Shown one piece after another: positions 19,520-56,031 of a stretch of 64,000 bases of DNA (its first letter is position 1; every line of letters begins with the position of its first letter). A program made the position numbers and the translations under genes. The DNA lies in NCBI RefSeq assembly GCF_002886045.1, contig NZ_CP025791.1, positions 5,595,001 through 5,659,000 on the forward strand, given 5' to 3'. Source of the stretch: Flavivirga eckloniae (GTDB taxonomy: Bacteria > Bacteroidota > Bacteroidia > Flavobacteriales > Flavobacteriaceae). Below the pieces are notes generated by a model that saw nothing but the letters and a program-made list of their open reading frames with translations, was not told the origin of the DNA and did not search any database.

Positions 19520-19568
19520 ACTGCCAACTGATCACTGCCTACTGTCTACTGCTAACTACCTACTAAAA
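19520..19568. repeat. Degenerate 7-bp tandem array (ACTGNNN type), 7 units
   Basis: Seven consecutive heptads in perfect register: ACTGCCA, ACTGATC, ACTGCCT, ACTGTCT, ACTGCTA, ACTACCT and ACTAAAA. It lies in the leader of the glycosyltransferase gene and overlaps the stop codon of the HsdR-N gene. The last unit, ACTAAAA, is the same as in the arrays before marR and the AAA+ gene. Confidence 0.85.
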
Positions 19569-20002
19569 TCAGGGATTTCCCTTAAAAAATTATACTGTTC
19601 ATTTTCAAAATCCATTTGACAATAATAATGATTTAATCCGTTTGTAACCATTAAATAAGTCGCATTCAGCTCTAAATTATAGCGTGCTATTTGATCGAAT
19701 GTATCTTGATTTATAACAATTTTGGGTGCTTTACATTCTACAATTAAATGAATACTGCCGTTAGAATTATAAACCACAATATCGTATCGTTTTTTTAAAG
19801 TGTTAACGGTCAGTTCTTTTTCAACATTAATTAAAGATTTCGGATAGCCCTTGTTATGTATTAAATATTGAACGCAGTGCTGACGTACCCATTCTTCGGG
19901 TTGTAAAATCACAAATTTTTTACGAATGCTATCGAAAATAGAAATTTTATTTTCGTTATTTTTGAATCGAAACGAAAACTTTGGAAAATTAAGTTCTTGC
20001 AT
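19556..20002 (-). CDS. Type I restriction HsdR N-terminal-domain (PD-(D/E)xK nuclease-like) protein
   Basis: 148 residues. The pattern KRYDIVVYN...HLIVECKAPK is the D...ExK core of the HsdR N-terminal nuclease fold, preceded by EEWVRQHCVQYL. It stands alone: no HsdR motor, HsdM or HsdS gene is present. In Bacteroidota such single-domain proteins occur at housekeeping loci, so a restriction role is not implied. It is divergent from holA with a 129-bp gap. Confidence 0.8.
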   Translation of the reverse strand: MQELNFPKFSFRFKNNENKISIFDSIRKKFVILQPEEWVRQHCVQYLIHNKGYPKSLINVEKELTVNTLKKRYDIVVYNSNGSIHLIVECKAPKIVINQDTFDQIARYNLELNATYLMVTNGLNHYYCQMDFENEQYNFLREIPDFSR

Positions 20003-36967: not shown

Positions 36968-36984
36968 AATAAATATTTTTGTTC

Positions 36985-36992
36985 TATATTTG
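36985..36992 (+). promoter_or_regulatory. Predicted -7 box of the flavin reductase promoter
   Basis: TATATTTG matches TAnnTTTG, 22 bp before the chosen ATG at 37015. The dyads at 36949-36967 occupy the expected -33 region, as for a repressor site. Confidence 0.5.
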
Positions 36993-37014
36993 TACTATAA
37001 ATATTTTAAGACTT

Positions 37015-37545
37015 ATGAAAAACATTATATCATTTGCAGGAAGCAATAGCAAAAATTCAATAAATGTAAAATTAGCGGCCTATGCTTCAGGCTTGGTAGA
37101 AAATGCAAACGTTAATTTTTTAGATTTAAACGATTTCGAATTACCACTGTATGGTATGGATTACGAAATAGAACATGGTATTCCAGATAACGCACATAAA
37201 TTTTTAGAAGCGATTAAATCATCAGACGGGATAGTATTATCTTTAGCGGAGCATAATGGAGCTTATTCAGCAGTATTTAAAAATCTGTTTGATTGGATGT
37301 CTAGAATTGAAGGAAAAACATTTTTTGGTAAGCCTATGTTACTAATGGCAACGTCACCAGGAGGTAGAGGAGGAGCTTCTGTTTTGAGTATATCGCAAGA
37401 TAGATTCCCACGCCATGATGCTAATATTGTAGAAGTGTTTTCATTGCCGTCATTTGGTGATAATTTTGTAGAAGGTAAGATTGCAGATGAAGCATTAAAT
37501 TCAGAATTGAAAGGTAAGGTGATTGCATTTCAAAAGGCACTGTAG
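37015..37545 (+). CDS. NAD(P)H-dependent FMN reductase/oxidoreductase
   Basis: 176 residues from the ATG at 37015 (MKNIISFAGSNSKNSIN). A further upstream ATG at 36979 lies before the -7 box and is rejected. Flavodoxin-like fold: FAGSNSKNSINVKLA binds flavin phosphate, and LSLAEHNGAYSAVFKNLFDW and SPGGRGG are conserved in NADPH-FMN reductases. Likely reduces quinones, azo compounds or flavins in the cytosol. First gene of the presumed MarR regulon. Confidence 0.88.
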   Translation: MKNIISFAGSNSKNSINVKLAAYASGLVENANVNFLDLNDFELPLYGMDYEIEHGIPDNAHKFLEAIKSSDGIVLSLAEHNGAYSAVFKNLFDWMSRIEGKTFFGKPMLLMATSPGGRGGASVLSISQDRFPRHDANIVEVFSLPSFGDNFVEGKIADEALNSELKGKVIAFQKAL

Positions 37546-37596
37546 CAAATTACAGAAAACTGAACACTGAGAATCGATTGCTAATAATAATTAGAT

Positions 37597-37661
37597 TCTC
37601 GCGAAGACGCGAAGACGCAAAGGAAAACTGTAAACTGATCACTGATCACCGAATACTAAAA
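37597..37661. repeat. Composite repeat: CGAAGACGC units plus five ACTGNNN heptads, ending at the marR start
   Basis: CTCGCGAAGACGCGAAGACGC (about 37598-37618) is followed by GCAAAG and then ACTGTAA, ACTGATC, ACTGATC, ACCGAAT, ACTAAAA (37627-37661). The last unit ends one base before the marR ATG. A similar two-part block precedes the ATG at 47898. Two more heptads (ACTGAAC, ACTGAGA) are at 37559-37572. Confidence 0.8.
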
Positions 37662-37662
37662 A

Positions 37663-38100
37663 ATGGGAGATTTCTCTAAAGATATTAATTCAAAGTTTCC
37701 AAATAATAGGATTAAGGCTTTGTTGAACATTGTTTATACAGCAAGTTGGATAAATAGTTATCAAAACGATTTCTTTAAATCATATGGAATTTCTCCACAG
37801 CAATACAATATATTAAGAATACTAAATGGAGCTAAAGAACCTTTAAAAGTTCAGGTGATCAAGGATAGAATGTTAGAGCGTTCTCCTAATGCAACCAGAT
37901 TAATGGATAAATTATGTGCTAAGGATTATATAGAAAGGTTGCCATCTGAGCATGACAGACGTGTTGTTAAAATTGTAATTACAGACGAAGGAAAAAAGCT
38001 ATTAAAGGCTATACCAAATACAATTAATAAAGATTTAATAAAAAACTTAAGTGAAGAGGAAGCAGAACAATTAAGCAATTTGCTAGATAAAATGCGATAA
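37663..38100 (+). CDS. MarR family transcriptional regulator
   Basis: 145 residues with a winged HTH: QQYNILRILNGA, LKVQVIKDRMLERSPNATRLMDKL (recognition helix) and the wing RLPSEHDRRVVKIVIT. Its only Cys is residue 85; there is no N-terminal sensor Cys as in OhrR, so it more likely senses a bound ligand such as a quinone or phenol. It sits between the flavin reductase and two pirins. The matching dyads TTCCTAGGAA and TTCCATGGAA are the best candidates for its operator. Its own leader instead carries the heptad array. Confidence 0.9.
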   Translation: MGDFSKDINSKFPNNRIKALLNIVYTASWINSYQNDFFKSYGISPQQYNILRILNGAKEPLKVQVIKDRMLERSPNATRLMDKLCAKDYIERLPSEHDRRVVKIVITDEGKKLLKAIPNTINKDLIKNLSEEEAEQLSNLLDKMR

Positions 38101-45902: not shown

Positions 45903-46055
45903 GTTTTTTGGAACTTAATAGAATACAACGAACGCTCCAGTATTAGTGAAATTGCTCATGAATTGGGAATGAGTAATTTACCACACTTTGCACAAGCTTT
46001 TAAAAAGCGGTTTGGAAAACTTCCTTCGGAATGTATGTCAAAACAAAGCCCATAA
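45903..46055 (+). pseudogene. Relic of an AraC-family regulator (C-terminal HTH only)
   Basis: After a stop at 45900-45902, 50 codons encode the end of an AraC DNA-binding domain: ISEIAHELGMSNLPHFAQAF is the second HTH, followed by the conserved KKRFGKLPSE and a stop at 46053-46055. No start codon and no N-terminal half exist. The nearby 10-codon frame at 45886 is in another phase, as expected after deletion. The rest of the 567-bp gap (45663-46229) shows no other coding potential. Confidence 0.75.
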
Positions 46056-46229
46056 TATGCTTTTAGGATGGGTAAAACTGTAACATAATTGTTTCTATGT
46101 CTACTAATCTGATATAAGTAATATAATTTAATGAAAATCTCAAAAAAGTAACCTTCGGTATACTTTTACCTATGGGTTTTTTACTAAATTGCTTATCTTA
46201 ACATTTATAACTTAAAAACAATCTAACCT

Positions 46230-47579
46230 ATGTCAGACGATTTTGATTTATTAGAAACTAATTCTAACGAAAAAACAGAGAAAGTAGATGTCAATTGGGG
46301 AAAAGCCATCGACACTATGAAATCTAAATTGTCCCAGGAAGATGATCCCGAAGTAAGGCAACGTATACTAAATGCCACTTTAGACGACGTGGTACATATG
46401 GCAGAAAAAGACAGAACGACACTTTTAGATGCTATTAAAGACCTAACGGACTATCAAGATGAAGTAGGGATTATTTTCGAAAAATTTTCATCACTTAACG
46501 CTACCGAACAAAAGGTAATCGACGATGCCCAAAAAGCTCTTGATCGAGCCAAAATTGAGCTCGAAGATGCCGAAGCAAAACCAGACACCTGGTGGAATAA
46601 CCTATGGGGGCGAAAGAGCAAAATAAAAAAGGCTCAAGAAGAGCTTAAAGCAGCCGAAAAAACACGTGCTTCTGCCGATAACAAAGCAAAAGCTATGTTT
46701 CAGGAACGTATAGAAAGTGCAGATGTGCAAACGCTTTTAAGTGAATTATCATATAAATCGCAGGCAGCTGTTAGCAGATTAAAAAATCGTGAGATAGAGA
46801 TTAAGGAAGTAGAAGATAAGCTGCAAGACGCTATTGTAGAAGCTACCAAAAATCATACAAAGGCTTTAGAAAAAAAGAAAGAAGTAGAAGCCAAATTGGA
46901 AGAACGTTATGCATTGCTAAAACAAGCGCGCCAAGAGCTTGAAGATATAGCCGATAAACAATCTGCAGATTATGCCCAAGCCGTTGGTAAAGTAACAAGT
47001 CTTGAGCAAAAAGTAGAAGAACTGGAAGGTTTAAAAAATGCATATACTACATTGGCAGCCAGTAAGGATAGCTTTGTTCATAAGCATAATTTAACCATTA
47101 AAGTATTAACCTCGTTACGTAGCAATTTACAAACACACCGTGCTAAATTAAAAAGTGATACCGAAGAGCGTTTAAAATATTATGATGGTTATGTTGTAGC
47201 TTTAAAAGCCAGAACAGATCAGGAGTTTGCCGCTATTTTAGAACACTTAGGAGTAAAAACCGATGAGCATATTGGAGAAACTTTAGCATCGATGCACACC
47301 GCAAGTGCCAAAGCGCGTCAGGAAATGATGGATAATATCCCAGTTCACGAAAAAGTGATGCAAGGTGTTTATAGCAGTTATGCAGAAGCTTTACAAGAAA
47401 TTCGAGCTAAAGACACAGATATTCAAAAGAATTTTGCAGAGCGTTATGGTATCGATATGAAAGAGATTTTTGAAGATTACTATAAAGTCGATCCAAATAA
47501 AGCTTCTGAAGGTGATGATGGCGGTGAGCCAGAAGGAAAACCAAGACCAGAAGCCAGTGACGAAGATTTGTTGGGTTAA
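46230..47579 (+). CDS. Long coiled-coil protein, first gene of the unassigned AAA+ cluster
   Basis: 449 residues, acidic and soluble. A heptad-rich coiled coil covers residues of about 85-310 (AQKALDRAKIELEDAEAK, LEKKKEVEAKLEERYALL). The middle has WWNNLWGRKSKI, and the C-terminal tail is disordered and acidic (GDDGGEPEGKPRPEASDEDL). No signal peptide or membrane helix. I do not recognise the family; such proteins are sometimes labelled microtubule-binding only because of the coiled coil, which should be ignored. A scaffold for the downstream ATPase is a reasonable guess. Confidence 0.82.
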   Translation: MSDDFDLLETNSNEKTEKVDVNWGKAIDTMKSKLSQEDDPEVRQRILNATLDDVVHMAEKDRTTLLDAIKDLTDYQDEVGIIFEKFSSLNATEQKVIDDAQKALDRAKIELEDAEAKPDTWWNNLWGRKSKIKKAQEELKAAEKTRASADNKAKAMFQERIESADVQTLLSELSYKSQAAVSRLKNREIEIKEVEDKLQDAIVEATKNHTKALEKKKEVEAKLEERYALLKQARQELEDIADKQSADYAQAVGKVTSLEQKVEELEGLKNAYTTLAASKDSFVHKHNLTIKVLTSLRSNLQTHRAKLKSDTEERLKYYDGYVVALKARTDQEFAAILEHLGVKTDEHIGETLASMHTASAKARQEMMDNIPVHEKVMQGVYSSYAEALQEIRAKDTDIQKNFAERYGIDMKEIFEDYYKVDPNKASEGDDGGEPEGKPRPEASDEDLLG

Positions 47580-47581
47580 CT

Positions 47582-47610
47582 GTCATTCCTGCTTAGGCAG
47601 GAATCTCATG
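47582..47610. repeat. Short GTCATTCC...GGAATCTC hairpin repeat
   Basis: TGTCATTCCTGCTTAGGCAGG followed by AATCTCATG; ATTCCTGC/GCAGGAAT pair as a hairpin. Same word family as the repeat after sppA. It follows the stop of the coiled-coil gene by 2 bp and may act as a terminator or attenuator inside the cluster. Confidence 0.6.
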
Positions 47611-47702
47611 AAAAGAAATTGTTAGTTCCGTAGTGGTGTTATTCTTACTTGATAAAAAGTCTGTATCACACACAGTAGCAAAGATTCTAGTGCTTTATAT
47701 AT

Positions 47703-47895
47703 ACTGTTCACTGAATACTGCAACACGAAAACTATTTCACAAAGCCGTGAAGCCACAAACAAGATACTGTTTACTGAGTACTGAACACCGAATACCAAAA
47801 TAGCAAACTATGATTCATGTTTTTCTCGCAAAGCTGCTAAGACGCAAAGAAGATACTGCTAACTGAGACAGAACACTGATTATTGAACACTTATT
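47703..47895. repeat. Three ACTGNNN heptad arrays upstream of the 349-aa gene
   Basis: Array 1, 47703-47723: ACTGTTC, ACTGAAT, ACTGCAA. Array 2, 47766-47800: ACTGTTT, ACTGAGT, ACTGAAC, ACCGAAT, ACCAAAA. Array 3, 47855-47895: ACTGCTA, ACTGAGA, a 6-bp unit, ACTGATT, ATTGAAC, ACTTATT, ending two bases before the ATG. Between arrays 2 and 3 lies TCTCGCAAAGCTGCTAAGAC, like the block before marR. These fill most of the 318-bp gap, and no gene is seen. Confidence 0.8.
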
Positions 47896-47897
47896 AA

Positions 47898-48947
47898 ATG
47901 ACCATCAACCACATTGTAACACCTTTAGATTCAGCAGTTCTAGATTCCAAAGAACAATATGTCTTCTATCATAAAATGATCGATTTTGCATTTAAGGAAC
48001 TTGTAGTAGCAGTGCAACGACAAGGTATATGCAATAAGCAGGAGGTGCTTTTATTTAAGCAATATTGTGATTTGTTACTATACACCATTGAAGCCATGCG
48101 TGTAAAATATATGTACGATGAAGAAGATCATATGAAGATTGATTTAACCTATTCAGGGTTCCCCAATTATTTGGAGTTTAGGTATTTGTTTAACGATTTG
48201 GAGTTGCGAGATGAGTATTTGGGTAAACTCACACCGATAAACGATTTAAAAGAGGAGTTTTTAGATACGCTTTTGCGAAAGAAACAGCCAATAAAAAGAA
48301 GTAAACTGTTTCAAGCCGCTTCCATAGTTTATTATTCGTCAGTTAAAAAGGAGTATATCTTCAATCGTTTTGTACAAGGAAAAATAATTGATGCAGACAA
48401 AGAATTTGAAGGGGATTATCTTGTTAGTTGGGGATTTTTTGATGTAGCTCATAACCGACCATTTATCTGCTTTATGTACTTTAATTACGACGGCTCTAAA
48501 GTTGGTGAATATAGAGATGAGATTTATGAGGCACTAAAATCTACAGCCGATAGAAAGATGAATCTGGATACCATGGCTTATGCGATAGATAGAAAATTAC
48601 CAAAAGTATTTCCAAAGCTAATAAGAAGAATTGATTTAGGGCCATTACACAATGTGTTTGCAAAAGATGAAAACAGTATAACACATGCTATTTTAGAGGG
48701 TATTGGGAAAAAAGAAATTCCCTTGGAATCTTATGCTTTTTCTCTGGAAATAGATGAAGTAGCCTCTGGTAGCGAATTTAAAGAAGGCGGATTTTTTTCG
48801 AAGCAGATATTGCAAAAGTGGAATGACGCATTTAAACGAAAATATGTGTTTGCTCCACACCGAATTATCCAATTATTACATAATAAAACCCCTGAGATTA
48901 TGAACGATTTGGCGAAACAACCTATTGAATTGGCTGGATTGAAATGA
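47898..48947 (+). CDS. Unrecognised soluble protein of the AAA+ cluster
   Basis: 349 residues, soluble, mixed alpha/beta, no signal peptide or membrane helix. Distinct stretches are QYVFYHKMIDFAFKELVVAV at the N-terminus and YLVSWGFFDVAHNRPFICFM in the centre. I cannot place it in a family. Its position between the coiled-coil protein and the AAA+ ATPase, on the same strand, suggests a partner or adaptor of the ATPase. Confidence 0.78.
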   Translation: MTINHIVTPLDSAVLDSKEQYVFYHKMIDFAFKELVVAVQRQGICNKQEVLLFKQYCDLLLYTIEAMRVKYMYDEEDHMKIDLTYSGFPNYLEFRYLFNDLELRDEYLGKLTPINDLKEEFLDTLLRKKQPIKRSKLFQAASIVYYSSVKKEYIFNRFVQGKIIDADKEFEGDYLVSWGFFDVAHNRPFICFMYFNYDGSKVGEYRDEIYEALKSTADRKMNLDTMAYAIDRKLPKVFPKLIRRIDLGPLHNVFAKDENSITHAILEGIGKKEIPLESYAFSLEIDEVASGSEFKEGGFFSKQILQKWNDAFKRKYVFAPHRIIQLLHNKTPEIMNDLAKQPIELAGLK

Positions 48948-49456
48948 CGTATTTAGTGAGCAGTGTTCAGTCTCAGTTTGCAGTGTTTAGAGGGTGATGA
49001 TTGAAATTTATAATGAAGAAAATAATTAGTAAGCTGTGTTCAATATTCTGAAGACAGTGAACAGTTGTAGATAAACAATAAGTAATTTAAAAACATTCAA
49101 GTTTATTATTAAGTAAATAACATATAATTATTTGTAAATAAAAGAATATGTAATCAAAAGTTTAAAGTAATAGTAATTAGTTTTTAGTGAACAGCTATAG
49201 GGATGAAAAAAGTAATTCGAAAACATAAAAACTTACTAGTATGTAAATTAAGTATACTTATCTGTAAATAAAAGTATAATACCCAAAACATATAAAGTAT
49301 GAGTAAGTACTGTCTACCGAATACTGTTTACTACATATTGAACACTGAACACTAATAGTAAACGATATATAATATTTTAAAATAATTAAAGTCAGAGCAT
49401 TAACAGCAACAGTAAGCACTGCAAACTGAGGCTGAACACTGACTACTAAAACAAAA
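48948..49456. repeat. 509-bp repeat-rich gap before the AAA+ gene
   Basis: No gene seen. Opposite-sense units (CAGTGTT, CAGTCT, CAGTTTG, CAGTGTT) are at 48961-48987. A perfect seven-unit array is at 49309-49357: ACTGTCT, ACCGAAT, ACTGTTT, ACTACAT, ATTGAAC, ACTGAAC, ACTAATA. A last array at 49418-49451 (ACTGCAA, ACTGAGG, a 6-bp unit, ACTGACT, ACTAAAA) ends five bases before the ATG at 49457. The stretch between is A/T-rich, and TAAATAAAAG recurs near 49137 and 49266. Confidence 0.8.
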
Positions 49457-51421
49457 ATGGAACACAACTCAACATTCCCCATAAAACTAACCGAACTCGA
49501 CATGCTGCGAGATGAAGCTTCTTCCTATTTAAAAAGTATACAATGGGAACAAGGGCAGCGTGCAAAAAACAGAGATAAAGATGCAAAGGACGAATCTATT
49601 TTACTGTATCTATCTCGGGCAAATAATGGTAGTAATGCGTTAGAAATCACTTCAGTATCAAAAACTATTCTGGCATTAAAAAAGCGGCTATTACCAGATT
49701 CTATAGCCATTCCTATTTACTTAAATCAAACACTTTATGCCGTTCAGGAAGGTATTACATTAGGTATTTGGATTAAAGATAGTTACTACGATGCATCGGG
49801 CTTATCGAGTTTAAACGAAAACAAAACAGCCTTAAACACCGACGGAAAACGGGAGTTTGAGAGCAAAATGCATACAGCCACAGCATTTATGCTATTTGCT
49901 ATGGCATACAAAATATTAAATGACCTAAAGTCTTATGCATCTGATGATTTAAGCGTGATGAAACAGAAATTTGCAGGTATCCCAGAGGTATCTCTGTTAT
50001 CGCCATTAAAAGGAATTTCATGCAGTTTGTTCTATTACGATAAGTATTTAGCGCATCCGGAGATTGTAAAATCCGATAAAGATGTTATAAACTTTACGGT
50101 GGTTTATTTTGAATCGCTAATTGACGAAATTCAGCAAAGAAAAAGTTCTTTAGAATACACCGAAACTATAGAAGATAGAACCTATAAACTGGAAAACTCC
50201 GAATTTGCTGTATCTGGTTGGAGCAATGTATTTCAAGGTGCAGCCAAAAGTGTTGAGTTCAATAAAATTAAGTTTGAACAAATTGTAGGGAATCGGGATG
50301 CCAAGCACTTTGCACGTCGTTTAACCGAACGTATGCTGAGTTACGATTTTACGGCTAAAAAGAACCCGTTTCAGGAATTAGGTGGTTTTATGCCGGTTTT
50401 CATGGGCTATGGTATACCGGGAACAGGAAAGAGTATGCTCATAGCAGCTATAGCAACACGGCTTAAGGAGCATTGCGATACTTTAGATATTCCGTTTTTA
50501 TTTCACCCCATGCCAGATACGCTAATAAGTACTTTTCAGGGTGGTTCAGCAGAAAAAATGGTGGAGTGGATGAAACCATTGCAAGACCCTTCAAAATTAA
50601 TTTTTGCACCTATTGATGATGCAGAAAACAACCTGCAGGAGCGAACAGCACAAGGCGTTTCGGCAGGTGTAAAAGAAGTTATAGGCGTGTTTTTACGTTA
50701 TACAGAAGGTGCCTATGCAGTAAACTACGGAAACAGTTCCATAGGGTTATTTACCAACCTACCCGAAATGCTTGATAAAGCTGTGATTTCACGTGTTCAG
50801 GGACGATTCAAGATTGACGGAGCCAGAACAGAACACGATTTTTTAGATCAGGATCATTTATGGTGGCGTAAATTGGATGATACCATGCCGGATTTTGTAA
50901 ACATGGAAGGACCTGAAAACTATAGCTATTTGCAAGATCAGGGATTGGCTAAAAACATGGGAGAAATTCTTAATGAGATTAAAAAACCAACCGAAGAGCG
51001 TGTACATGACATCTATGATAAAGTAGAAAAACAATTTAAAAGCAATCAGCACTTATTCTATGCGAACCTTTACAAAGACATGCAAGAAGCTTTTCCATTC
51101 TTTTCATCACGAGATGTTAGGAACATTCAAAGTGCCGTATCATTACGATTAACAGATTTTGATTTAGAAGAAGACTGGTTCGAAAACCCAGATATTTATT
51201 TTAAACAGGATTACGATACCAAGTATAACATGCTTCAGGAATTAATGCGTGCCAATATGAAAGGATTGGATTTTTCAGAGATCAGACGTCAGGAAGTGGT
51301 CCGTTATTTAGATAACGTAGCAACCATAGCAGACACCGATTTTAAGCGAAAAGTAGATGCCAGAGTAAATCAATTAAACATAGAAAGAGAAGCTAGAAGC
51401 AGTTTTGAAAATGACAACTAA
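49457..51421 (+). CDS. AAA+ ATPase, core of the unassigned cluster
   Basis: 654 residues. The AAA+ module is central: Walker A GYGIPGTGKS (residues 317-326), Walker B FAPIDDAE with Asp387-Asp388-Ala-Glu390, and a sensor/second-region-like GLFTNLPEMLDKAVISRVQGRF. The about 300 N-terminal residues are helical and of unknown type; the C-terminal about 170 residues are also helical. No membrane helix. The extended N-domain and the neighbours suggest remodelling of a protein partner and not a DNA-directed role. It overlaps nudK by 11 bp, so translation is coupled. Confidence 0.88.
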   Translation: MEHNSTFPIKLTELDMLRDEASSYLKSIQWEQGQRAKNRDKDAKDESILLYLSRANNGSNALEITSVSKTILALKKRLLPDSIAIPIYLNQTLYAVQEGITLGIWIKDSYYDASGLSSLNENKTALNTDGKREFESKMHTATAFMLFAMAYKILNDLKSYASDDLSVMKQKFAGIPEVSLLSPLKGISCSLFYYDKYLAHPEIVKSDKDVINFTVVYFESLIDEIQQRKSSLEYTETIEDRTYKLENSEFAVSGWSNVFQGAAKSVEFNKIKFEQIVGNRDAKHFARRLTERMLSYDFTAKKNPFQELGGFMPVFMGYGIPGTGKSMLIAAIATRLKEHCDTLDIPFLFHPMPDTLISTFQGGSAEKMVEWMKPLQDPSKLIFAPIDDAENNLQERTAQGVSAGVKEVIGVFLRYTEGAYAVNYGNSSIGLFTNLPEMLDKAVISRVQGRFKIDGARTEHDFLDQDHLWWRKLDDTMPDFVNMEGPENYSYLQDQGLAKNMGEILNEIKKPTEERVHDIYDKVEKQFKSNQHLFYANLYKDMQEAFPFFSSRDVRNIQSAVSLRLTDFDLEEDWFENPDIYFKQDYDTKYNMLQELMRANMKGLDFSEIRRQEVVRYLDNVATIADTDFKRKVDARVNQLNIEREARSSFENDN

Positions 51422-52013
51422 TCGTATAAAGAATATAGCAAGCAAGCTGCTTTCAGATAATTATTATATCCTCAAAAAGTTAACTTTCGATTATTTAATG
51501 AAAGATGGACGTTGGGTTACGCAAGCCAGAGAGGTTTATGATCGAGGAGACGGAGCTGGAATACTGCTTTATAATAAAGAGAAACAAACCGTTATCCTAA
51601 CAAAACAGTTTAGGATGCCTACATATATGAATGATAATACAGATGGGTTTTTAGTTGAAATTTGTGCCGGTATGCTTGATAAAGATAACCCCAAAGCTTG
51701 TATTATAAGAGAAACCGAAGAAGAAGTAGGGTATAGAATAAAAGAAGTAAAAAAAGTATACGAAGCCTATTCATCACCTGGCGTAATGACCGAAAAGATG
51801 CATTTCTTTATTGGTGAATACACCGATGATATGAAAGTAAATAATGGTGGCGGATTAGATAGCGAACATGAAGACATTGAAGTATTGGAACTGCCTTTTA
51901 GAGAGGTGGTTGATATGCTATATAAAGGAGAAATTGTGGATACTAGGACTATTGTATTGTTGCAGTATGCTATAATTAATAGATTGATTGAATTAGAAGA
52001 GATAAGTCATTAG
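51411..52013 (+). CDS. nudK: NudK-type Nudix hydrolase (GDP-mannose/ADP-sugar pyrophosphatase family)
   Basis: 200 residues from the ATG at 51411. The Nudix box region GMLDKDNPKACIIRETEEEV keeps the catalytic RExxEE core, and LVEICAGMLD, EAYSSPGVMTEKMHFFIGEY and DIEVLELPF match the E. coli NudK pattern. The fold hydrolyses nucleoside-diphosphate sugars. It is coupled by an 11-bp overlap to the AAA+ gene, so a housekeeping-looking enzyme is built into the cluster, where it could remove or sense a nucleotide signal (inference). Confidence 0.88.
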   Translation: MTTNRIKNIASKLLSDNYYILKKLTFDYLMKDGRWVTQAREVYDRGDGAGILLYNKEKQTVILTKQFRMPTYMNDNTDGFLVEICAGMLDKDNPKACIIRETEEEVGYRIKEVKKVYEAYSSPGVMTEKMHFFIGEYTDDMKVNNGGGLDSEHEDIEVLELPFREVVDMLYKGEIVDTRTIVLLQYAIINRLIELEEISH

Positions 52014-52089
52014 GTAAATGGCATAAGAAGATATGAGGTAAATAACACAGCTTTTACCTTTTCACTAATGCCTTTCATTTAAAATAAGA

Positions 52090-53328
52090 ATGCAAAAATT
52101 AAAAGAAGCCAATTTATACAGAAGCGAACTCATTCCGGTTAGTGGAAAGCTGGTGGAACGTTATAACAAATGTCTGCTAAAACTTGGATTTACAGAAACA
52201 AAGTTAGAAACATTTCATATAGATGGTATTGGGTGGAGTCCGGAGATTGCAGAAGAAAAAAACGAAACACATTATTTAAACAATGGTGATGCCAATGCGC
52301 ATGGCATTATAATTTCTCCCCTTCAAAAAGGAAAACCGGTGTATGTGCCTTTCCATACCTTCGATCGGGATATGATGCAATACGTTTTTAAGACTTACGA
52401 AGAAAAAATTAATGACATCACCAGAGATTCTGCCATTTGCCTGGATTTCGATCAAAAAATTGATGCTTTTTATGAACCTTTAGATGTGTTAAAATATAAT
52501 ACCATACACATTAATTTTCACTTGATGAATAATCTATATCATCAACAAAAAGAACAACTGGAGCTCATAAATAAGTTCAAAAAAGACCATAATTTTATAA
52601 ATGAAAGTATTCATTTGGAATTATTGAATTCAGCTAAAACTTACGGAGACTTACGAGCAAGGGATTTAGAAATGCCAGCTATAGATTTTTCGGTGAGTTC
52701 TTTTTATACCAGAGCTTTTGGTGGGGTATACGTATTACGTGATTTTATAAGTCCAATATTGGTTTTTGAGGATGAAAACTCACATAAAGAAGCTATTAAA
52801 GATACGAATTATGAGGTGTTGATATATCATATTCATCAACCAGAATTAATGGCTAAATTGCGCGATCATATTATTATAGATTACGATTTGGAAGAAACAA
52901 TAAAAACAGATCGTTACGAGCGTATTAAAAAATTCGAGATAACTCAATATCTGGAAAAACCAGAGCACCCTGTTAAAGATATTTTAGATAATCCTATTCT
53001 ATATAAGAGGTATCTTAATAAATTAGATATTGAATCGCGTAAAAAGGTAATGAGTGTTGAACGTTATTTAGAAAAATTGGAAACAAGCAATCAATACAAA
53101 ATAGCAGATATTGTAGATTCAAAATTGTTTGAAGCCTTACACAAACCACATTCTTCTTTAGAAGCAAAGCATCAGGATTTAATATGGAAACTGTTGGTAA
53201 ACGTATCACCTAAAGATGTGTTATATTGGTACTGGTACGATAAAGAAGATTTTTACACTAGCTTTGAGTCATGGGATGATTCGCTTAAAGATTGGGTTAT
53301 AGCAACGATTAGTAACAATATTGGGTAA
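52090..53328 (+). CDS. Unrecognised soluble protein of the AAA+ cluster
   Basis: 412 residues, no signal peptide or membrane helix. The N-terminal part begins LYRSELIPVSGKLVERYNKC and has GDANAHGIIISP. The middle holds SSFYTRAFGGVYVLRDF, and the C-terminus is Trp/Asp-rich (YWYWYDKEDFYTSFESWDD). Not recognised. The leader has a small hairpin (AGGTAAA/TTTACCT, 52036-52059). It follows nudK by 76 bp on the same strand. Confidence 0.8.
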   Translation: MQKLKEANLYRSELIPVSGKLVERYNKCLLKLGFTETKLETFHIDGIGWSPEIAEEKNETHYLNNGDANAHGIIISPLQKGKPVYVPFHTFDRDMMQYVFKTYEEKINDITRDSAICLDFDQKIDAFYEPLDVLKYNTIHINFHLMNNLYHQQKEQLELINKFKKDHNFINESIHLELLNSAKTYGDLRARDLEMPAIDFSVSSFYTRAFGGVYVLRDFISPILVFEDENSHKEAIKDTNYEVLIYHIHQPELMAKLRDHIIIDYDLEETIKTDRYERIKKFEITQYLEKPEHPVKDILDNPILYKRYLNKLDIESRKKVMSVERYLEKLETSNQYKIADIVDSKLFEALHKPHSSLEAKHQDLIWKLLVNVSPKDVLYWYWYDKEDFYTSFESWDDSLKDWVIATISNNIG

Positions 53329-53367
53329 TTGTATACTAATTATATAAAGTATAATAATTAATAAGTT

Positions 53368-53487
53368 CCTTCCCTTTTTAAGGGAAGGTGGCTTTAATTC
53401 TCTTAAAGAATTAAAGACGGAAGGGAAAACCACCTCGTCTTTTGATTTTTTGGGAATCAAAAGCCACTCCTCCTTAAAAAGGAGGAG
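53368..53487. repeat. Four consecutive hairpins with perfect 9-bp stems
   Basis: CCTTCCCTT/AAGGGAAGG (53368-53388), CTTTAATTC/GAATTAAAG (53392-53416), CTTTTGATT/AATCAAAAG (53439-53463) and CTCCTCCTT/AAGGAGGAG (53467-53487). They follow the 412-aa gene by 39 bp and precede the heptad array at 53523. No coding potential. May be a compound terminator or processing structure. Confidence 0.8.
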
Positions 53488-53522
53488 AGCGACTAAAATA
53501 ATTAATGGATATATGAGTAAGA

Positions 53523-53585
53523 ACTTCAGGCTTCCAACTCCTAACTTCGAGCTTCAAGCTTCAAGCATCTAACTCAATCCTTAAA
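53523..53585. repeat. 7-bp periodic array (ACTTCNN/GCTTCNN type)
   Basis: In strict 7-bp register: ACTTCAG, GCTTCCA, ACTCCTA, ACTTCGA, GCTTCAA, GCTTCAA, GCATCTA, ACTCAAT, CCTTAAA. It ends 11 bp before the ATG at 53597. The unit sequence differs from ACTGNNN, but the period and position relative to a start codon are the same. Confidence 0.8.
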
Positions 53586-53596
53586 ACTCTAACAAC

Positions 53597-54127
53597 ATGG
53601 GACTAGAATTAATAATTTTCATAGCAGCAATCTTTTTCGGAGCTTTTCTATATTGGAGGGAATCTCGTGGTAATGGTCTGTATCGATTCTTTAATAAGGT
53701 TTTTAATTCGAAGGAACTACAAATGAAACCTACTGATAAAAAAGGTTTTGTGTATCAACAAACATTTTTAGTCCGATTGATTTTTATTGGGTTTCTGTTT
53801 TTAATAGGTATTGTTATCGTTCGTTTTTTAATTCCCATAGATCTTGCAACTATTTCAATATTTGCTTCCATGATTGTGGGTACATTGGCTGGTACTTATT
53901 TGGCTAACTTTGTATTTAAATCGGGTGAAGTTATAGAAGAAAAAAGTGATTCTTTAGAAGATATCGTACATGATACAATAGAAAAGGGAAAAGAGATCAT
54001 TGATGATTTAAAAACAAAAGATGCTGACGTTGAAGAAGTAGAAGATGTTGAGGGAAAAAAGGAAGCACCTGAAGAGGAAAAAAAGAGTGCCAGAGAGCGT
54101 TTGAAGGATAAGGGGTATCTTAAGTGA
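53597..54127 (+). CDS. Membrane protein of the AAA+ cluster (three helices, acidic tail)
   Basis: 176 residues. Membrane helices near residues 3-19, 57-76 and 81-105, then a long charged cytoplasmic tail (EEVEDVEGKKEAPEEEKKSARE). Not recognised. The acidic tail resembles that of the coiled-coil protein and may dock a cytosolic partner (inference). Confidence 0.75.
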   Translation: MGLELIIFIAAIFFGAFLYWRESRGNGLYRFFNKVFNSKELQMKPTDKKGFVYQQTFLVRLIFIGFLFLIGIVIVRFLIPIDLATISIFASMIVGTLAGTYLANFVFKSGEVIEEKSDSLEDIVHDTIEKGKEIIDDLKTKDADVEEVEDVEGKKEAPEEEKKSARERLKDKGYLK

Positions 54128-54128
54128 G

Positions 54129-54220
54129 CAGTTGACAGTCGCAGTGTTTAGTCTCAGTTATTTGCAAATAAAATGAAGATTGTGAACTAAAATGTCATGC
54201 TGAGCTTGTCGAAGCATCTT
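54129..54220. repeat. Reverse-sense heptads and a TGTCATGCTGAGCTTGTCGA repeat
   Basis: CAGTTGA, CAGTCG, CAGTGTT, TAGTCT, CAGTTAT lie at 54129-54161, in opposite sense to the other arrays. TGTCATGCTGAGCTTGTCGA followed by AGCATCT is at 54191-54217, the short form of the elements after sppA and the first pirin. No gene in this 167-bp gap. Confidence 0.7.
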
Positions 54221-54294
54221 TATATTGAAACTAAAAGAACAAACAGATTACCACATCACACTAAAAGTGTAATTTGTAATAACCATAAGAAAAT

Positions 54295-56031
54295 ATGATC
54301 AAAAATTACTGGAACAGGGGGAAACGTCAAAAGATTAGAGTAATAATTATTGGTTTAATCTTACTCATCTTATTATTCATTTTACGAGACGATTATCAAC
54401 CAGCATTGTTATTCGTTAGAAAATTCATTTTCATCATTTTACTAAGCACCATTGCTTTGTTTTTTGGATTACGTAAATTCAGGAGATCTGCAAGCACTGG
54501 AGCTCGTATAGGTATTCTAGGATTATTAATTGGTTTCTTTGCAATCTTATATGTTGTTGGTTGGCACTTTAGGATGTATGATTATATGAAAACCTATAAT
54601 GTGTTTAATAATCTAAACAGGGTTCAGATTAACGAACTGCCCTTAACACAAAACGAAAGAATACAGCCCTTAAGAAATGTGTTTTCTATGGCAAACGAAA
54701 GTGTTGGAGAAACTAAGGATGTTTCTTTGCCGCATTTGGTAAGAGTAGGAGATGAGAACAAATGGACTATGGCTATTCAACCCACAGAGAAATATGTGTG
54801 GCAAGGTATAACAGATAATACAGAAGAAGTGTTTTCGGTATCCAGTACCACGCCGTTTCCAAGGTTTTCCAGTGAGAATAGAATTCCAGTAACCTTTTCC
54901 ATAGGCGAGTCTTTAAAGTTTAGTAGAAACACCTATAACGCCGTAGTACAGCGTTTCAATTTCTTTCAATTATTCACCATGGAGCCCAGTGATACCTATT
55001 ATATGAAAAATGATACAGGGCAATGGGTAGAAGTGGTTAGTTTAATTAAATGGAAAGGTTTTTTGTTTCCCTATCCAACCTTTGGAGGGGTGATGGTTAT
55101 TGATAATGGCGAACACGATTTTGGTGATTATATTGAACGTATTTTAATAGGTAAAGGCACTTATATAAGACCGGAAGAGATGCAGAATCATCCATATCTC
55201 ACACGACAAAATACACTGGCAGAAAGTATATCGCGTTTACAAGCCGAGTCATTAAAGTTTTTAGGTGGGTTTAGCGATCCGTTGCCGTGGAATATGGAAA
55301 CTGCTGTGAAAATACCTGATTTGCCAGACGATCAAAATGAGCAACCGTTTGTAACAGACTTTGATTTTTCCGATACGAATTCTGATGCATATAGTGGGTT
55401 GTACCACTGGTTTGGTTTAGAGCCGGTAGGGGATGAGCGTACCAGTTTAACCTTTAGCGTTTTTATACCAGCAGATGGTACCGATAAGATTTATTATTAC
55501 GACCATGCATCTAAAAAACAAGGGTATGCAGGGGTTTCTGCCATGCCTTTAAAGGTGATTGAATCTCGTAAGGAGTTTGACTGGTCGGTAAATAAACCAG
55601 TTGAGTTTAGACCGTATATAAAAGATATTGCGGGTAGAAAGCGTATGTTCTTTTTAGGCACAATATCTGCCGTAAGAGAAGGTTCCGATAAATTTGATGG
55701 TTCTGCTACCCCGGATTTAGCATTGATTGATAGCGAATATAGAGATGTAGTTTGGATTGATGTAAAACATCCAAGCCAATGGAATAAAACAGTTTACGAC
55801 CAGTTGAATGAAGCGTGGAGAGCCAGTGAAGGTATTGGGTATTATTTTGTAGAAGAGACAAAAGAGATTGATATAGTTGAAACTGTAAAAGATTCTATCA
55901 AGGTAATTTCTGATGATGAGATACTAAAACAAACTTCGACTACGCTCAGTACAAGAATTCAGGATAATAAAAATACTGCAGAAATTGAAAGATTGCAGAA
56001 ACAAATTGATTCATTAAAAGCTATTAATTAA
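54295..56031 (+). CDS. Large membrane protein of the AAA+ cluster
   Basis: 578 residues. Three N-terminal membrane helices (residues of about 15-33, 40-60 and 75-95) are followed by about 480 residues of soluble, Trp/Tyr-rich domain (GLYHWFGLEPVGDERTSLTF near the middle) and a C-terminal coiled coil (AEIERLQKQIDSLKAIN). Not recognised. The three-helix anchor puts the large domain on one side of the inner membrane, probably outside (inference). Followed by the 92-aa gene after 4 bp. Confidence 0.8.
   Translation: MIKNYWNRGKRQKIRVIIIGLILLILLFILRDDYQPALLFVRKFIFIILLSTIALFFGLRKFRRSASTGARIGILGLLIGFFAILYVVGWHFRMYDYMKTYNVFNNLNRVQINELPLTQNERIQPLRNVFSMANESVGETKDVSLPHLVRVGDENKWTMAIQPTEKYVWQGITDNTEEVFSVSSTTPFPRFSSENRIPVTFSIGESLKFSRNTYNAVVQRFNFFQLFTMEPSDTYYMKNDTGQWVEVVSLIKWKGFLFPYPTFGGVMVIDNGEHDFGDYIERILIGKGTYIRPEEMQNHPYLTRQNTLAESISRLQAESLKFLGGFSDPLPWNMETAVKIPDLPDDQNEQPFVTDFDFSDTNSDAYSGLYHWFGLEPVGDERTSLTFSVFIPADGTDKIYYYDHASKKQGYAGVSAMPLKVIESRKEFDWSVNKPVEFRPYIKDIAGRKRMFFLGTISAVREGSDKFDGSATPDLALIDSEYRDVVWIDVKHPSQWNKTVYDQLNEAWRASEGIGYYFVEETKEIDIVETVKDSIKVISDDEILKQTSTTLSTRIQDNKNTAEIERLQKQIDSLKAIN

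Follow-up and report, generated by a model that had tools for sequence, protein, structure and literature searches.

What are the arrays of seven-base units that occupy gaps between genes in this part of the Flavivirga eckloniae chromosome, and what gives them their place and direction? In the 64,000-nt stretch of DNA analysed here (the window), ACTG, or CAGT where an array lies on the minus strand, reappears every 7 bp, the three letters from one core to the next being free, in the interval 48961–49451 and in the other gaps named in Table 1. The units at 49309–49357 (ACTGTCT, ACCGAAT, ACTGTTT, ACTACAT, ATTGAAC, ACTGAAC, ACTAATA) keep a single register, with an exact ACTG core in 3 of 7 and one mismatch in the other 4. 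A preliminary description of this DNA had located that seven-unit register correctly, as well as the array that reaches 49451 and stops short of a start codon, and arrays are present at all the further sites that it named (19520, 37559, 37627, 47703–47895 and 54129). Its strict 7-bp register holds at 49309–49357 but not elsewhere, where spacings of 6 and 13 also occur. Likewise, its array positions stand but the strand was missed, part of 48961–49451 and 54129–54158 being minus, and the orientation towards gene edges was overlooked. Minus-strand arrays open the interval 48961–49451, with CAGT at 48961, 48968, 48974, 48981, 49055 and 49062.

Table 1 Heptad arrays in the window, with strand and neighbouring gene edge
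Feature	Coordinates	Strand	Context
7-unit array	19520–19568	+	Runs into the stop end of minus-strand gene 19556–20002 (HSDR_N_2 domain)
Short array, 2 exact cores	37552–37572	+	Near the stop of 36979–37545, directed away from that stop
Array	37627–37661	+	Runs into the start of 37663–38100 (MarR family)
First of 3 serial arrays, gap 47580–47897	47703–47723	+	
Second of 3 serial arrays, gap 47580–47897	47766–47793	+	
Third of 3 serial arrays, gap 47580–47897	47855–47892	+	Spacings 7, 13; ends just before start codon 47898
Array	48951–48984	-	Faces the stop codon of 47898–48947; spacings 7, 6, 7
Weaker array	49024–49065	-	Second to face the stop of 47898–48947
7-unit array, one register	49309–49357	+	Directed at gene 49457–51421 (AAA domain)
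Array	49418–49451	+	Spacings 7, 13; five bases separate it from the ATG at 49457
Array	54119–54158	-	Faces and overlaps the stop of 53597–54127; spacings 7, 6, 13
Related heptad array, other core (about ACTTCNN)	53510–53596	+	Up to start codon 53597

The spacing is far above chance. Across 39 gaps of the window (6,748 bp), exact ACTG pairs at distance 7 number 17, against a mean of 0.14 in shuffled sequence (maximum 2 in 300 shuffles), while distance 6 gives two pairs and distances 4, 5, 8, 9 and 10 give none. The pattern (ACTGNNN)3 with at most two mismatches finds 28 matches against 2.08 expected, a number reached by 0 of 100 shuffles. The surroundings had been called an AAA+ cluster; a Pfam AAA match was obtained for only one of seven genes tested between 46230 and 56031, namely 49457–51421. 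Rfam gave no match at the gathering score for window positions 46000–55000.

Other repeats share these gaps. The ACTTCNN array, inside which a period-7 tandem repeat is called at 53545–53566, can be seen by eye in all 12 species compared, though more weakly in G010, and most of them share the leader GAGTAAG. By eye, the place immediately behind an ACTG array is often taken by 8-bp arrays of the CGCNAAGA type (37600–37622, which is called as period 8, 47730–47765 and 47826–47850 in the window, and stretches L052, L055, L057–L059 and L061). Palindromes like CATTCCTGC..GCAGGAATC fill several array-free orthologous gaps, again by eye; they occur at 47583–47612 in the window and in the congener orthologues of gaps 52014–52089 and 54128–54294. 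Between the left and right arrays of the interval 48961–49451, at about 49080–49300, two diverged A+T-rich copies of about 100 bp are visible.

Genome-wide, a motif search of the kind proposed in the preliminary description clearly separates the arrays from their control, with 212 exact three-core in-register matches against 6 for the reversed pattern. Among the matches listed, array sites are dispersed over the chromosome; a replichore bias was considered and dropped, the reverse-strand sites reaching only up to 0.78 Mb among the matches listed. The other proposed measure, autocorrelation at lag 7 over all intergenic DNA of an even sample, is not raised (z = 1.1; 186 gaps, 49,030 bp), because the arrays are sparse. 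This sample of 20 stretches of 20 kb is the only even one of the F. eckloniae genome; most other stretches were chosen for listed or expected heptads (including 14 of 20 in one set) or as orthologous regions. In a tetramer scan of its 400 kb at lag 7, ACTG ranks first with 26 runs of three, about 18 of which stem from one 20-unit array; at lags 6, 8 and 9 there are no ACTG runs of three, and at lag 10 there is one. A detector blind to the core found three arrays of period 7, two of period 8, one of period 4 and none of five other periods in the even sample, a weak lead for period 7. In stretches mostly chosen for heptads, it found 76 period-7 arrays in the genus, 61 in genome G348 and 107 in the multi-phylum loci listed, against 0–3 arrays each for periods 6, 8 and 9. 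The arrays are thus sparse, and what marks them is the recurring core.

All 11 congeners searched carry three-core matches, from 20 to 227 each. At least one such match occurs in 33 of 60 genomes, F. eckloniae included, and at least one four-core match in 148 of 395 genomes of the phylum. Any function of the arrays is therefore dispensable, given their patchy presence (33 of 60 genomes). In some genomes of the phylum the reversed-pattern control is itself abundant (202 matches in G348 in the four-core scan of 395 genomes), and a second core was therefore examined in G348. GTCANNN heptads are numerous in genomes G170, G158, G178, G236, G193 and G311, either replacing ACTG or alongside it.

Direction of the arrays relative to gene edges

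An array faces the gene edge that it abuts, start or stop alike. In the F. eckloniae genome, 49 of 54 intergenic arrays (55 less one duplicate, in stretch L070, which overlaps the window) are directed at the nearer gene edge, and 141 of 142 arrays are intergenic when F. eckloniae and its congeners are pooled. We call the end towards which ACTG runs the front, and an end flush if it lies at −9 to +12 bp of a gene edge. Among the 120 pooled genus arrays whose gaps leave 60 or more bp to spare (L069 and L070 left out), the front is flush in 64 and the back in 3, and the front is the nearer end in 103; orthologous arrays enter these figures singly, so that the counts are not of independent events. 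The flush fronts comprise 45 at stops and 19 at starts. F. eckloniae alone (26 front-flush and 1 back-flush of 48) and the congeners alone (38 and 2 of 72) give the same picture. Gene edges were taken from simple in-house ORF calls, not annotation, which missed one IVP gene in L517.

Outside these species, G024, a genome of genus g14, has 11 front-flush and no back-flush arrays of 22, with the front nearer in 19. The front is also nearer in all five arrays of the F. eckloniae even sample at the threshold of the pooled count. For 80 of at least 120 multi-phylum loci, assigned by title to Cyanobacteria, Chloroflexi, Planctomycetes, Acidobacteria, Bacteroidetes and others, 71 arrays have the front nearer and 22 the back (n = 93, after removal of 8 arrays within ORFs and 20 whose gaps lie at a contig end). 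Cyanobacterial loci, picked by record title, obey the strand rule in 19 of 20 flush arrays. In viral contigs (80 of at least 120 stretches), the front is nearer in 125 arrays and the back in 42, with 57 arrays inside ORFs and 28 in gaps at contig ends left out. Four stretches from the viral collection (L393, L399, L417 and L425) hold 7 to 12 array matches in 5–7 kb at a G+C content of about 0.6, and are possibly misfiled bacterial DNA or array-rich mobile DNA.

The direction of ACTG is not the sole rule, which was ruled out as strand composition counts too; core and composition both carry information. Among the multi-phylum loci listed, the ACTG direction is kept where the ACTG strand is C-rich (23 vs 7) or balanced (12 vs 5) and is not kept where it is G-rich (9 vs 10). 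In G024 it is kept by 7 of 8 balanced and 1 of 3 G-rich arrays. The core-free detector leads to the same geometry: among G/C-skewed period-7 arrays flush on one side, the C-richer strand runs towards the gene in 35 of 36 in the genus, 22 of 22 in G348 and 26 of 30 in the multi-phylum loci listed. Non-array windows of the genus show no such bias at stops (133 of 268), and the stop-side bias of the arrays is therefore not background composition; at starts they are biased (259 of 370). In the multi-phylum loci listed, non-array windows at stops lean the same way as the arrays (64 of 100), and the multi-phylum geometry result is weaker than the genus one.

The core in G348 is a different one, GTCATCN followed by AACATCC, often in outward pairs. 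GTCATCN arrays nevertheless point at the nearer edge in 44 of 47 cases, with 8 front-flush and none back-flush. Three gaps of this genome (L344:4989–5265, L347:4510–4922 and L347:8348–8853) contain near-perfect long inverted repeats with heptads and inner palindromes.

Relation to known heptamer repeats

We regard the ACTGNNN arrays as the form taken in this lineage by a class of intergenic heptamers that includes the cyanobacterial STRRs, the TAACTGA repeats and the G-rich heptamers. The kinship with cyanobacterial heptanucleotide repeats suggested in the preliminary description is upheld, as unit length and geometry are the same and cyanobacterial loci hold an ACTG core. The REP/BIME palindromes, intercistronic elements between co-directional genes that can form hairpins in the message, are another comparison; the present unit, however, is not palindromic, and arrays mostly occupy one side of a gap only. 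Gramella forsetii and Aequorivita sublithincola are both Flavobacteriaceae. These two are among the five Bacteroidetes which, together with Beggiatoaceae and Cyanobacteria, carry direct TAACTGA repeats according to the accessible sections of MacGregor 2015 (PMC4679880), so the belief that no description existed for the family does not hold. In the same sections, the repeats are intergenic and mostly end just before start codons, a minority facing stops; a fixed heptamer was searched, and related heptamers were rarely repeated in the main genome studied (PMC4679880). The finding is cited in an accessible portion of a Thiomargarita paper (PMC4853749). TAACTGA is ACTGATA, that is, the ACTG core of the present arrays in a shifted phase. 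Here, however, the spacers are free, the exact ACTGATA spacer being found in only 2 of 187 seeds, and the flush arrays face stops over starts.

Cyanobacterial STRRs are presented as tandem repeats, usually of 7 bp, with function unknown and a hairpin possible; in the available part of the source they are fixed-unit repeats, described without a core/spacer split or edge geometry (PMC2670836), and the work is cited in an accessible part of PMC4748335. The heptamers GGGAATC and GGGGA(T/C)T of Xanthomonas and Nostoc, for which quadruplexes have been proposed, have the same edge geometry as the present arrays, as far as the accessible text of Rehm et al. 2015 (PMC4692102) goes. Written in the other phase, GGGGACT is ACTGGGG, with ACTG running away from the gene; the G/C strand, not ACTG, therefore rules there. 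In the genus, too, the G-rich strand of flush skewed arrays leaves the gene, as in quadruplex-forming heptamers. That our arrays are themselves quadruplex elements is nevertheless scarcely credible in spite of the common geometry: with no run of three or more G per unit, ACTGNNN lacks a G-tract, and composition excludes quadruplexes for these units. The geometry is kept without quadruplex potential, so the published quadruplex explanation cannot be the general one.

Within open-access literature, with subscription journals mostly outside, we found no description of ACTGNNN with free spacers and none of a geometry common to quadruplex and non-quadruplex heptamers. Heptamer arrays in Bacteroidetes were known already; what is added is the edge geometry, the split into core and spacer, a gap whose arrays are kept between species and the avoidance of divergent gaps. 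STRRs, TAACTGA repeats and G-rich heptamers have so far been treated apart, yet they have the unit length and the tested geometry in common. The question can thus be sharpened: by what are these heptad arrays read or made, given that they are directed at the starts and stops of genes alike?

Core, spacer and turnover of units

The array detector rewards ACTG; core conservation therefore rests on a next-unit test, as the geometry rests also on the core-free detector. For 187 seeds of two exact units, the following unit matches the core at rates of.76/.71/.70/.57 over its four positions. For the 106 seeds whose spacers differ at two or more places, the core still matches at.67/.58/.61/.42, while agreement of the three spacer letters with the preceding unit (.35/.31/.38) is no better than the.32/.31/.31 expected by chance. 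The earlier claim that only the first three or four positions of each unit are conserved is thus borne out, with about four of seven letters held and three drifting. Among the 187 seeds, AAC (46) and AAT (24) occur as spacers, and ATA only twice. Spacer letters in the genus are 3–4% G on the ACTG strand.

Orthologous gaps show how units turn over. In the gap after a 3-hydroxyacyl-CoA dehydrogenase gene (L054:7620–8510), CAGT arrays face the stop in 9 of 9 species for which both flanks were found, F. eckloniae included (a flank was not found in 3 congeners). Each species has 5–12 exact cores here, with spacers that read GGT, GTT or a mixture, and a step of 7 separates the cores in 60 of 65 cases. 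The longer the arrays extend, the longer is the gap (rho.93, slope.86, n = 9), so that length in this gap changes in unit-sized steps with the arrays. Other gaps turn over faster. In the gap that holds 48961–49451, five congeners have arrays at left and right (weak in one of them) and one has them at the right alone; another congener has scattered cores, and in four the gap holds unrelated inserts of 2–4 kb.

The suggestion, made from recurring unit orders, that entire arrays were copied from locus to locus was rejected. Among 56 F. eckloniae arrays (428 units), a run of three different units is common to three pairs of loci, which does not exceed what shuffling within arrays gives (mean 1.7, with 50 of 200 reaching 3); independent draws give 4.3 and a first-order Markov model 25. 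Units cluster within arrays.

We tentatively favour the reading that the arrays are intercistronic elements grown by slippage, with a selected core that is most likely read in the transcript. Arrays mostly sit between two co-directional genes, about half with one end on a gene edge. Whole 7-nt units would be gained and lost in place by slippage, so that unit number and spacer letters vary between species while core, site and direction stay. The core survives where three other letters drift to chance, and for this reason we take it to be read by something.

The strongest rival is an account by neutral slippage without any reader, which we also regard as possible but hold to be doubtful. Here ACTA at gene edges (a leader ACTAA..ATG, or a stop TAG followed by T) would seed arrays; slippage by 7 nt would lengthen them, and they would be tolerated in places free of promoters. 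The seed does exist: at non-array edges of the genus, ACTA is directed towards rather than away from the gene 84 against 30 times at 733 starts and 114 against 55 times at 677 stops, and the bias is slight 15–50 bp off (140/110 at starts, 101/89 at stops). ACTA is the core of the last unit in 30 of the 64 flush arrays of the pooled genus, and TAG is over-represented among the stop codons faced by flush arrays (25 of 55 vs 65 of 351). The clustering of units within arrays instead of between loci, and the patchy distribution over genomes, fit as well. A seed bias of two or three to one, however, stands against an array bias of 64 to 3, about twenty to one. Moreover, neutral decay should strike core and spacer alike, whereas spacers are at chance and cores stay.

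Transcription, pairing and candidate readers

The transcriptional setting of the genus arrays is biased. Array gaps comprise 91 tandem, 9 convergent and 1 divergent (n = 101), compared with 148, 32 and 43 among 223 gaps of the even sample and the window, and divergent gaps are thus avoided (p = 7e-7). Under the favoured account of a core read in the transcript between cistrons, ACUG runs would lead into the next start codon and CAGU runs would come after the previous stop. Where both occur in one gap they could pair, and the resulting intercistronic hairpin may uncouple the two cistrons in expression or decay. An array at one edge of a gap does tend to be accompanied by one at the other (12 gaps, odds ratio 6.5, p = 1e-5), and two-sided gaps of 50–250 bp fold more stably than shuffled copies (median z −3.2; below −2 in 9 of 10). 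One-sided gaps, which are 87 of the 101 in the genus, show no such advantage: their median z is −0.92 (n = 25), that of controls −0.86 (n = 40). Being so common and without fold excess, they imply that a hairpin cannot be the general function. No association was found between arrays at both edges of one gene (odds ratio.75), and a gene cassette with arrays at both ends was rejected.

It counts against reading in the transcript that one RNA-binding protein must read ACUG before starts yet CAGU after stops. The many one-sided gaps are a further weak point, as is the symmetry about the gap, which a reader at the DNA level would explain with a single motif. Such a directional process would be either a reader of double-stranded DNA (candidates are a Chi-like recombination signal, a nucleoid protein or a topoisomerase site) or array growth directed towards the gene, whatever the transcription. 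Direction that is symmetric about the gap and takes in stops and starts, the C-richer strand entering the gene in core-free arrays and the equivalent behaviour of GTCATCN all argue for it. On the other hand, the avoidance of divergent gaps ties the genus arrays to transcription (G348, with arrays in 7 of 23 divergent gaps, shows no avoidance). In addition, arrays add length in the one gap measured, and do not overwrite. A gradient of growth is likewise not seen, unit identity being equal in back and front halves (.38 vs.40); core mismatches per unit are.23 in the back half and.13 in the front half. We consider a DNA-level process unlikely for the arrays studied here. A broader proposition, that several phyla carry a directional mark of gene edges made of period-7 arrays with a lineage-specific core, its strand polarity following the gap edge instead of the direction of transcription, non-quadruplex and with its own reader or directional growth, strikes us as speculative but not far-fetched.

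In G024, spacers are purine-richer on the message strand on both sides, those facing starts having A.61 and G.21 and those facing stops C.29 and T.29 on the ACTG strand. Spacers therefore seem to follow transcription there, while cores follow the edge. These G-containing start-facing spacers bear on the suggestion that arrays are Rho-loading insulators, in which a gene-entering strand that is C-rich, G-poor and stop-rich would cause incoming transcripts to be terminated. The composition of the gene-directed strand in the genus fits, but the G024 spacers do not, and the cyanobacterial loci follow the strand rule too although, to our knowledge, most Cyanobacteria lack Rho; we judge the suggestion improbable.

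A very improbable alternative is that the arrays form the inverted termini of a mobile element, such as one with a 23S-IVP four-helix-bundle gene between outward arrays, as at L054:8666–9049. The gene is found in this position in several congeners, and an IVP gene of G024 seems to be placed likewise when positions are compared by eye. An array lies within 400 bp at only 1 of 30 PF05635 loci, against 8 of 278 even-sample genes, a weak test in that arrays are scarce or absent in the source genomes of several of the 30. In the genus, 8 of 13 IVP ORFs have an array within 300 bp, but 7 of these 8 are orthologues of the L054:8666–9049 locus. The mobile element is not supported. IVP gene number in 60 genomes predicts arrays poorly (G018 has 16 IVP genes and 3 array matches), although genomes without IVP genes have at most 3 array matches each; small genomes lack both. 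Small ORFs do visit such gaps, at L054:8666–9049 and in gap 53329–53596 of G006, G011 and G009; they are PF05635 four-helix-bundle genes and, in G009, an ORF that reads like a GIY-YIG nuclease.
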